Assembly (NCBI GenBank): GCA_020847635.1
Contig: JADLBQ010000086.1
Span: 1 to 64,000, forward strand
Direction of reading: 5' to 3'
Source of the DNA: Bacteroidia bacterium
GTDB taxonomy: Bacteria; Bacteroidota; Bacteroidia; AKYH767-A; OLB10
Length of the DNA stretch: 64,000 nucleotides
In this document: one piece after another, positions 48,665 through 52,821 of the stretch
Position numbering within the stretch: position 1 is the stretch's first letter
How the letters are laid out: every line of letters starts with the position of its first letter
The notes under the pieces: generated by a model
Databases searched by the model: none
The model's input: only the letters and a program-made list of their open reading frames with translations
Told to the model about the DNA's origin: nothing
Position numbers and translations under genes: made by a program

Positions 48665-50119
48665 ATGAGAACAAAACTGTTTATTCTGATTGTTTCTTTT
48701 GTGATTCTGGCTCCGTTTGCTTCGTTGGCTCAGAAGGGATTCAATATAAAAGTGACTGTTAAGGGAGTAGCCAAAGACTCAATTTGTTATCTGGCTAATT
48801 ATTATGGTGATAAACAGTATCTACTGGACTCTGCTAAAGTAGGTGCTGACGGTTCTGTGACGTTTAAAGCTGATACATTATTACCTGGAGGACTTTATCT
48901 TTTTGTACTACCAGGCAGAAATTATTTTGAAATGGTGGTTGACAAAGAGCAGCGCTTTATAATGGAAACGGATACGGCTGATCTGGTTGCAAATATGAAA
49001 GTGCAAGGTTCAAAAGATAATCAGGTATTCTATGACTACCTCCGGTTTATTGGCTCAATTTCAAAAAGGGCAGAGGCCTATCGGGCTGAATATGATAAGG
49101 CAAAGGAAGGTTCTGCCGAAAGGGAAGCCGCAGAGCAGAAACTCCGGAACCTGAATACAGAAGTTGTTGAAAACAAAACCGAATTTCTGAAAAACAATCC
49201 GGATGCTTTTATGTCAAAGGTATTCCTGGTAACTAAAGAAATTGAAATCCCCGAGGCTCCCAAGAACCCAGACGGAAGCACAGATTCCACATTTGCCTAC
49301 CGGTATTACAAAGAGCATTTCTTTGATAATATTGATATGAAGGATGAACGGCTGATTCGCACACCTGTATTTCATCAGAAAATTGAGCAGTATATCAATA
49401 AACTCACTCCCCAAACTCCTGATTCAATCATTGTATCTGCTGACAGGCTTGTAAGTCTTACACGGCCGAATAAGGAAATGTTCAAATATATTGTTTGGTG
49501 GATTACCAATCATTATGAAACTTCTAACATAATGGGTTTTGATGCGGTTTTTGTTCACATGGCCGAAAAGTATTATACCAAAGATCAGGCTTATTGGGTT
49601 GATTCAACTACCTTGTATAAAATCCAGGAACGGGTTAAAATTCTGAAACCAATACTCATCGGAAAGAAGCTTAGAAACTTGGTTTTAAAAGATACTGCAG
49701 GTGTTTACCGCTCAATGTACGATATTAAAAAGCCGTATACACTGATCTATATATGGGATCCTGATTGTGGTCATTGTAAAAAAGCAACACCCCGGCTCAA
49801 AGTACTTTATGATCATGCTAAGAAATATGGGTTTGAAATTTATGCTATTGATAATGAAGCAGAACATGAAAAGTGGCTCCAGTTTATCCGTGAACATAAT
49901 TTGAACTGGATTAATGTTGCTGATATGGATTTCAGAGATAATTTCAGGTATGAATTTGATATTCACTCAACACCTCAGATGTTTTTATTGGATGCAGAAA
50001 AGAAAATCATAGCTAAAAAAATTGATGTCGAAACACTCAGTAATATTCTGGCGGATAAATTCAATAATCCTGAATTAAAATTAGAACCTGAAAAAAAGGA
50101 TGGTGCAGAACAGCACTGA
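48665..50119 (+). CDS. thioredoxin-like (TlpA-type, DUF4369/DUF5106-like) secreted protein
   Basis: Signal peptide, N-terminal DUF4369-like segment, WDPDCGHCKKATPRLKVLYDHAKKYGFEIYAI. Confidence 0.85.
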   Translation: MRTKLFILIVSFVILAPFASLAQKGFNIKVTVKGVAKDSICYLANYYGDKQYLLDSAKVGADGSVTFKADTLLPGGLYLFVLPGRNYFEMVVDKEQRFIMETDTADLVANMKVQGSKDNQVFYDYLRFIGSISKRAEAYRAEYDKAKEGSAEREAAEQKLRNLNTEVVENKTEFLKNNPDAFMSKVFLVTKEIEIPEAPKNPDGSTDSTFAYRYYKEHFFDNIDMKDERLIRTPVFHQKIEQYINKLTPQTPDSIIVSADRLVSLTRPNKEMFKYIVWWITNHYETSNIMGFDAVFVHMAEKYYTKDQAYWVDSTTLYKIQERVKILKPILIGKKLRNLVLKDTAGVYRSMYDIKKPYTLIYIWDPDCGHCKKATPRLKVLYDHAKKYGFEIYAIDNEAEHEKWLQFIREHNLNWINVADMDFRDNFRYEFDIHSTPQMFLLDAEKKIIAKKIDVETLSNILADKFNNPELKLEPEKKDGAEQH

Positions 50120-50148
50120 AAAAAAAGAGCCCCGCTTGGAGCGAGGCT
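50119..50148 (-). terminator. Rho-independent terminator on the minus strand
   Basis: Minus strand AGCCTCGCT-CCA-AGCGGGGCT-C-TTTTTTTT; the one non-Watson-Crick position is U.G on the minus strand but a C/A mismatch on the plus strand. Confidence 0.75.
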
Positions 50149-50218
50149 GCATAAACGAAAAGACTAACCCTATGAAACCATGTATTTTAAATACGAATAC
50201 GCTGCTTTAAATTGTGTG
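50119..50218 (-). ncRNA. Candidate small RNA of about 100 nt
   Basis: Minus-strand TACTTTTG at 50222-50229, transcript with no sizeable ORF, and a terminator hairpin with T8 tract at 50119-50148. Confidence 0.55.
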
Positions 50219-50221
50219 TGA

Positions 50222-50229
50222 CAAAAGTA
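50222..50229 (-). promoter_or_regulatory. -7 element TACTTTTG of the candidate sRNA
   Basis: Plus-strand CAAAAGTA. Confidence 0.5.
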
Positions 50230-50848
50230 TCCGTAGCTGGAGTGTTTAAACATTCAGATGACTAAGGTTATCAACAGGTTAAAGTTAATTGCAGGATGCT
50301 ATTTTAGGTAATAAAAACTCTTGTTTTTAAATAAAATGCACAACAGCAACTGAGTAGGTAAGAACAAGGTTATGATTCAGGCAGGAACTTGTAGTTTTCA
50401 AAATGCAATTCAGCAAATACAATAACACGAAAGAGTAGCACTGTTTTGATCAACATACTTAGTTGAAACAGCCTGTAAAGCATGTCATTAAACTCACAAT
50501 CTATTCGATTGGCTGAGTAATAAAAGCATATTCAATTAGTGCTACCATCCAGGTGATTAAAACAGATCTGGAATGTTTTGCTTTCATATCAGTTATTTGT
50601 TTTAAAAGTAAGTGACTGTATCAAGCTAAAGTTGAAAAATAATTTTAAACAGAAAGAAGAATTATGAACAACTCTGAATATTCCATTTCCTGGAATACTC
50701 CTTAAAATTTTCTGTTATCCAATCAAACTTAGAGGTTATGCGGAAGATTAAACCTAAACGAACGGATGTGTATTCAAAGTGATGATTTATTCAGGATAAT
50801 AAAAGAACAAAAGCTTAATTGAAACAGTAACAATTACATTGAAGATGT

Positions 50849-51664
50849 TTAGTACTGCTCCTTTTCATTCGGGAAATTCTGTGATTTTACATCTTGAATG
50901 TATTTATCAATGGCTTTGCTGATGTCATCGTAAAGATTCAGGTATCTTCGTAAAAAGCGGGGAGAGAATTCTTTATTAATTCCAAGCATGTCATGAAGAA
51001 CCAGTACCTGGCCGTCAGTATGTTTTCCTGCACCGATTCCGATTGTTGGAATCTTTAGTTTACCTGAGACTTTCTTAGCCAGCACAGCCGGAATTTTTTC
51101 CAGAACAATTGAAAAGCAGCCTGATTGTTCAAGAATCAGTGCATCTTCAATCAATCTGTCAGCCTCTTCTTTTTCCTTTGCCCTTACAACATAAGTTCCG
51201 AATTTGTAAATACTTTGCGGAGTTAGCCCAAGGTGACCCATTACGGGTACCCCAGCAGTCAGTATTCGCTCAATACTGTCTTTAACTTCGCGTCCTCCTT
51301 CCAGTTTAACAGCATGAGCTCCAGATTCTTTCATAATCCGGATAGCAGAATTCAGCGCTTCTTTAGAATTTCCCTGATAAGAACCAAAAGGAAGATCCAC
51401 AACAACCAGTGCCCTTTTAACTGCCCTTACTACTGAGGCTGCATGATAAATCATCTGTTCAAGGGTAATAGGGAGGGTGGTCTCATGGCCTGCCATTACA
51501 TTAGATGCTGAATCACCAACCAGAATTACATCAATACCTGAATCATCCAGGATTCGGGCTAAACTGAAATCATATCCGGTTAGCATGGCTATCTTCGTGC
51601 CAGCCCGTTTCATTTCCTGGAGTGTATGGGTTGTTATTTTTTTAACCTCTTTGTGTGTTGACAT
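50849..51664 (-). CDS. panB: 3-methyl-2-oxobutanoate hydroxymethyltransferase
   Basis: [62 protein letters not shown]. Confidence 0.96.
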
Positions 51665-51822: not shown

Positions 51823-52821
51823 TTACCTGCTTCCGGTAAATTCCTGCCATGACTTTTTAAGGTAGATATTCTCACCATAATAAGAAAGTACCATTTTCAG
51901 AAATACCGGAGGTGTAAAATTGGTAATCAGATCAATTCGTTTCAGCTGATTGTCAAAGATCACCATGGTTGGTAGCTGAAATCCTCCTCCGGTTAGTACA
52001 TTGATTACACTGTGAAAAGGATTTCCGTTTTCACCAGGCAGGTATTTTGAATGATTCCACTCAACAGGATGCTTTGATTCAATATCAAAATAAACCAGAT
52101 AGAAATTATCATTGATTAAACGACTAACTGCCGTATCATTGAAAACAGTTTGTTTCATCACTTTGCATCCAATGCACCAATTCGTAAACAAAAAGACAAT
52201 TGTCTTTCTGGACGTGTCTTTTTTTAATGAAGCATATTCATCCAATGAGAAATGCATAGGATCAGGATTATGGGTCTGTTCATAAAAGGTGTTTTGAAAA
52301 GCTGTCCGGAAATCATCATAACCAACAGATCTGAAAATATTTTCGACAACGTAAACAACCAATGGTTCCATATTTTTTACTTCCATATATCCCGGTGCAT
52401 TTATTTGCCGGTAGTCTGGGGTAATAAATACAGTAGTAGGGTAGGATAATTGTTGTCCCAGCATGCGAAGTGCAAAGTCGTGAACCGGCCTGGCACCCAA
52501 CGACCTGTTGACAAACATGGTATCCCTGTAAAATACAGTGTCTTTTGTTTCAGCATTAAACTTTACCGGATAAAACCACTGGTTGATATAGCTTGCAAAG
52601 TCGGGGCTGGAGTAGGTCGTCATCATCATTCTTTTACACCATCCGCACCAATCTGTATAGAAATCTATCAGCAAAGGTTTAGGGGTTTCTCTGACTGCTT
52701 TTTCAGCTTCTTCAAGGCTCATCCATTTAACTAAACTTTGCGGCTCTCCCTGAATCTGAACCTGCTGGGCAAATAGGCTTACTGGTATCAGTAATGCGAA
52801 AAGGATAACTTTAGGTTTCAT
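51823..52821 (-). CDS. secreted protein with two thioredoxin-like domains
   Basis: Signal peptide; WCGWCKRM and WCIGCKVM CxxC motifs. Confidence 0.88.
   Translation of the reverse strand: MKPKVILFALLIPVSLFAQQVQIQGEPQSLVKWMSLEEAEKAVRETPKPLLIDFYTDWCGWCKRMMMTTYSSPDFASYINQWFYPVKFNAETKDTVFYRDTMFVNRSLGARPVHDFALRMLGQQLSYPTTVFITPDYRQINAPGYMEVKNMEPLVVYVVENIFRSVGYDDFRTAFQNTFYEQTHNPDPMHFSLDEYASLKKDTSRKTIVFLFTNWCIGCKVMKQTVFNDTAVSRLINDNFYLVYFDIESKHPVEWNHSKYLPGENGNPFHSVINVLTGGGFQLPTMVIFDNQLKRIDLITNFTPPVFLKMVLSYYGENIYLKKSWQEFTGSR

Follow-up and report, generated by a model that had tools for sequence, protein, structure and literature searches.

The window analysed here, a stretch of 64,000 nucleotides from a Bacteroidia bacterium, carries on its plus strand a gene for a thioredoxin-like protein (48665-50119; DUF4369, DUF5106 and AhpC-TSA/Thioredoxin_8 domains), whose TGA stop codon occupies positions 50117-50119. 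The gap that separates this gene from panB (50849-51664, minus strand) spans positions 50120-50848 and hosts, on the minus strand, a unit predicted to specify a small RNA of about 95 nt (50120-50215), with its 5' end placed some 7 nt after a -7 promoter box and its 3' end in a T tract. The box, TACTTTTG (50222-50229, minus strand), follows the Bacteroidetes consensus TAnnTTTG and lies about 74 nt from a hairpin on the same strand, with no open reading frame in between. The putative transcript starts with a variable 5' part (50182-50215), continues with a 29-nt core, ATGGTTTCATAGGGTTAGTCTTTTCGTTT (50153-50181), and finishes in an intrinsic terminator, that is, a stem-loop of nine pairs with the loop CCA (AGCCTCGCT-CCA-AGCGGGGCT, at 50148-50128), followed by a C and a T8 tract (50120-50127). 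One pair of the stem is a U.G pair, and the T tract is present on the minus strand alone. The RNA locus has no coding capacity: no open reading frame of at least 40 amino acids was found at 50120-50229 on either strand, and the core, read on the minus strand as ATG GTT TCA TAG, cannot encode a peptide.

An earlier note on this DNA had pointed to the segment 50119-50229, and its coordinates and letters proved correct, as did its description of the -7 box, the hairpin with one U.G pair and the T tract restricted to the minus strand. It had also been right that the terminator abuts the stop codon of the thioredoxin-like gene, since T8 reaches position 50120 and directly adjoins the TGA. Two statements about the layout had to be revised. 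The RNA had been said to overlap the 3' UTR of the thioredoxin-like gene head-to-tail, but the two are convergent, that is, arranged tail-to-tail; and it had been placed before panB, whereas panB, which lies on the same strand and is the upstream neighbour, ends at 50849, so that the RNA is found about 620 nt downstream of it.

The terminator was also listed by a simple scan of the window. A strict scan, in which a hit needed 7 or more stem pairs (6 or more of them GC) and 7 or more T within a 9-base tail, returned a single terminator of such strength in the 64 kb (both strands), namely that of the RNA, and none in six Markov-1 null sequences of 64 kb, scanned on one strand each. The chance that a -7 box of the type TANNTTTG starts within the 26-nt upstream interval was about 0.03 for a single genome. 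At the level of sequence, the locus combines two features expected of a stand-alone small RNA gene, a promoter-like box and a Rho-independent terminator on the same strand.

A 241-base query was compared with 41 genomes (the window's own, G000, and 40 relatives), and it yielded two matches besides itself, one in a genome of the same genus (G001) and the other in a genome of another genus of the same family (G010). In ungapped comparison the core was identical at 29 of 29 positions in the three genomes, while just upstream only 15-17 of 55 positions agreed (27-31%), which is close to chance, and 16-20 of 60 agreed beyond the terminator. Besides the core, the three loci have in common a -7-like box 36-40 nt upstream of it, which reads TACTTTTG in the window (40 nt), TATTTTTG in G001 (36 nt) and TATATTTTG in G010 (40 nt; exceeding the consensus by one base). 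They also share a terminator, the stem of which has survived changes of base: its arms read AGCCTCGCT/AGCGGGGCT in the window, while they are AGCCTCGC/GCGGGGCT in G001 and AACCCCGCA/TGCGGGGTT in G010. Across the three stems, and with altered pairs in G010, two pairs were changed on both sides (G-C to A-T and T-A to A-T) and the U.G pair was replaced by C-G; these changes were read by hand from three sequences, whose terminators MAFFT misaligned, and no statistic is claimed for them. Judging from the sequences, the 29-nt core is under strong purifying selection.

In all three genomes the unit is found at the 3' end of an orthologous thioredoxin-like gene, and antisense to it, the encoded proteins of G001 and G010 being 77% and 54% identical in amino acids to that of the window. 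This gene is the only neighbour conserved throughout, and panB is absent beside the RNA in G001 and G010. There, the upstream gene (in G001 presumably dnaE, as named from its sequence, with about 250 nt in between; in G010 a large surface-type protein gene) is divergent, and consequently the RNA cannot arise by read-through from it. A transcript ended by the terminator must then start within the intergenic stretch, which calls for an independent promoter. The proposal, already present in the earlier note, that the minus strand carries a small RNA gene complete with promoter and terminator is thus supported as the best reading of the locus by the retention of the unit in two genera and by the divergent upstream neighbour in two genomes. 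Conservation reaching past close strains, the main test named in the earlier note, was confirmed, if narrowly, by a second species from the window's genus and by a single additional genus, and it is very likely, from the sequence comparisons, that the locus is a real, conserved and previously undescribed small RNA gene.

As far as the searches define it, the RNA family is narrow in distribution. Among 85,462 species genomes, the exact core was recovered only in the G001 and G010 records and in one Pseudovibrio match, which was taken as chance. The orthologous locus of 20 other genomes of the family contains the thioredoxin-like gene and lacks the RNA, and no copy was found in the viral contigs and plasmids searched. 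A sequence model of the core, run against 395 genomes of the class, produced no further credible copy, the best of the remaining hits having, by eye, no terminator; when 395 genomes are searched, chance alone should produce per-genome E-values of 0.001-0.01. An Rfam scan, at the gathering cut-off and at a relaxed E-value, matched the RNA to no family. The sole match to RF04319 (FopS) near the locus falls on the plus strand, outside the RNA, and at 14.5 bits, as compared with a gathering score of 56, is at chance level. In a separate observation, the sequence behind the stop codon of the thioredoxin-like ortholog at L021 (G011:C58) was densely packed with repeats of the TTAATTAACYACC and GCCGAAGGCGATAT types.

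The clue to a possible function came from the complement of the core (CGAAAAGACTAACCCTATGAAACC; AAACGAAAAGACTAACCCTATGAAACC), which is A-rich at -11 to -14 and then reads ATG AAA, so that it resembles a Bacteroidetes translation start lacking a Shine-Dalgarno (SD) sequence. In such leaders adenine is enriched at -3, -6 and -11 to -15 (PMC7366714), and the small RNAs GibS and FopS of B. thetaiotaomicron pair at start codons by means of conserved seeds (PMC7366714, PMC11697453). This resemblance favours a trans-acting RNA that, in the manner of GibS and FopS, would keep ribosomes from entering. In the predicted folds the core is mostly unpaired in all three RNAs (fold z-scores of -2.55 for the window RNA, and -1.02 and -1.86 for the others), and the folding energies derive largely from the terminator. 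We consider it fairly probable, though not certain, that the locus is a stand-alone gene for an RNA of about 95 nt whose core would act as an exposed seed, pairing in trans with mRNA leaders. Such pairing would cover the enhancer and the start codon of the target, and ribosome entry would be prevented on a small set of mRNAs; regulation by start-site pairing is, on this analysis, no more than plausible. A more specific version, in which the RNA is specific to the family and its whole 29-nt core serves as a composite seed, spanning both the A-rich translational enhancer and the initiation codon in SD-less Bacteroidetes mRNAs, can be put forward only tentatively. If true, a small RNA with such a seed would offer a direct probe of how SD-less Bacteroidetes leaders are recognised. 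Few Bacteroidetes small RNAs are known outside gut Bacteroides, and the present one, from an uncultured lineage, has an unusually sharp conserved core and a clear candidate seed. The general picture of small RNA regulation is unchanged by it, and RNAs of this kind can be found from a promoter box, a frozen core and a terminator, without expression data.

Among the systems known, GibS (145 nt) resembles the predicted RNA in being intergenic and in having its own promoter, a largely unstructured conserved seed and an intrinsic terminator. However, the two show no sequence match in Rfam, the conserved block is central in the new RNA and at the 5' end in GibS, and the GibS promoter contains the PM2 motif, whereas that of the new RNA carries the canonical TAnnTTTG box, the consensus used for Bacteroides promoters (PMC7366714 and related papers). 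Pairing at start codons is backed by experiment for GibS and is a proposal for the new RNA. FopS (about 65-70 nt) is likewise short and made from a canonical sigma-ABfr promoter, and its seed lies over start codons, as is proposed for the new RNA, but it is multicopy and different in sequence, while the new RNA is single copy and gives no score at the gathering cut-off for RF04319 or for any other Rfam family. The DonS-type RNAs, mentioned in PMC7366714, are cis-antisense small RNAs of Bacteroidetes associated with PULs; the new RNA is likewise a small antisense RNA of this phylum, but in contrast it has no adjoining susC/susD or other PUL gene, its neighbours being the thioredoxin-like gene and panB.

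In the search for targets, the core did not clearly outperform the controls. Leaving aside the RNA's own locus, sites complementary to the core with at most 3 mismatches numbered 2 in G000 (both stray), 0 in G001 and 3 in G010, not clearly above the reversed-pattern control, and when G-U pairs were allowed (up to 2 mismatches) the counts were 46, 40 and 24, as compared with 46, 37 and 21 for the reversed control. Duplex energies between the core and 353 translation starts of G000 and 294 of G001, sampled from part of each genome (about 460 kb in G000, the window included), were not significantly better than those of shuffled cores (rank 12 and 16, respectively, among 60 shuffles), and no ortholog pair stood out. 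The preference of the core for starts over internal ATGs exceeded all 60 shuffles in G000 but not in G001 (24 of 60), and it was not counted. The sole other exact occurrence of AAAAGACTAACC in G000 lies in the leader of a COX1-type oxidase gene, which was discarded as a conserved target because the leader of the G010 ortholog lacks AAAAGACTAACC. Similarly, an excess of CCCTATGAAACC in G010 (25, as compared with 5 in the control) was rejected as a set of targets, since it comes from genes starting with ATG-AAA-CC and from in-frame TAT-GAA-ACC codons, neither of which is modelled by the reversed control. In several weak class-wide matches, among them L114, L117, L123, L128 and L129, the complement appears by eye to lie at gene starts, as would fit its likeness to a translation start. 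As an observation in its own right, another gene with a thioredoxin fold (DsbH / Thioredoxin_7, two domains) is found in the window just upstream of panB (51823-52821, minus strand). Pairing between its leader and the core is fairly good (-17.7 kcal/mol, a value equalled by 0 of 100 shuffles), although this was one of 60 genes tested.

A different reading would have the RNA act in cis on its convergent neighbour, either as an antisense to read-through mRNA of the thioredoxin-like gene or as a roadblock or stabiliser of the 3' end of that gene. The constancy of this neighbour in the three genomes and the terminator adjoining its stop codon in the window are what such a role would predict, and the phrase 'antisense to a 3' UTR' in the earlier note holds true as geometry. 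In G010, however, over 100 nt intervene between the stop codon and the terminator beyond it, and the same thioredoxin-like gene does without the RNA in the twenty genomes mentioned above. Moreover, any sequence is perfectly antisense to its own locus, so that 29 frozen nucleotides amid drift that includes the terminator are left unexplained; the conserved part resembles a trans seed and not a cis antisense, and we regard a cis role as unlikely, albeit deserving some weight. The possibility that the core is instead the binding site of a sponge or decoy, titrating a protein or another RNA, appears less probable still. A frozen single-stranded block without a detectable mRNA complement would suit a protein site, and the Bacteroides protein RbpB does bind small RNAs (PMC11697453), but 29 fixed bases are unusually long for such a site.

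Two further readings compete with the trans-acting small RNA. It could be that the functional strand is the plus strand, with AAACGAAAAGACTAACCCT ATG AAA CC as the translation start of a small open reading frame after the thioredoxin-like gene: the block does have a start-codon-like layout, and MKPCILNTNTLL, MKPCIF... and MKPLFFMTAAAWAVNQIKI can be read by hand translation. Nevertheless, only MKP of the peptide is conserved, and a leader would not normally stay the same for 19 nt from one genus to another while the coding part drifts. Moreover, all three genomes have both the -7-like box and the T tract on the minus strand, and we hold this explanation to be very improbable. Finally, the core is complementary, with G-U pairs allowed, to the S-box segment GACUGGCCCUGUGAAACC, as if it were an antisense to SAM-I riboswitches, and the near-complements in G038 (L007) and G010:C70 (L052) are indeed S-box sequences. 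The riboswitch of G001, however, did not figure in the set of sites matching with 3 or fewer mismatches, and no SAM-I riboswitch (RF00162) was found in the whole G000 genome, where the core is nonetheless identical. This role was consequently rejected, and we attach hardly any probability to it. In the family at large, by contrast, a SAM-I riboswitch scored over the cut-off in 24 of 26 genomes. At L014:1501-1518 (G010:C1:4897-4914), the leader ahead of a short lipoprotein-like gene also contains GGACTAGCCCTGTGAAACC followed by T6, a sequence that resembles either part of an S-box or the core's complement.
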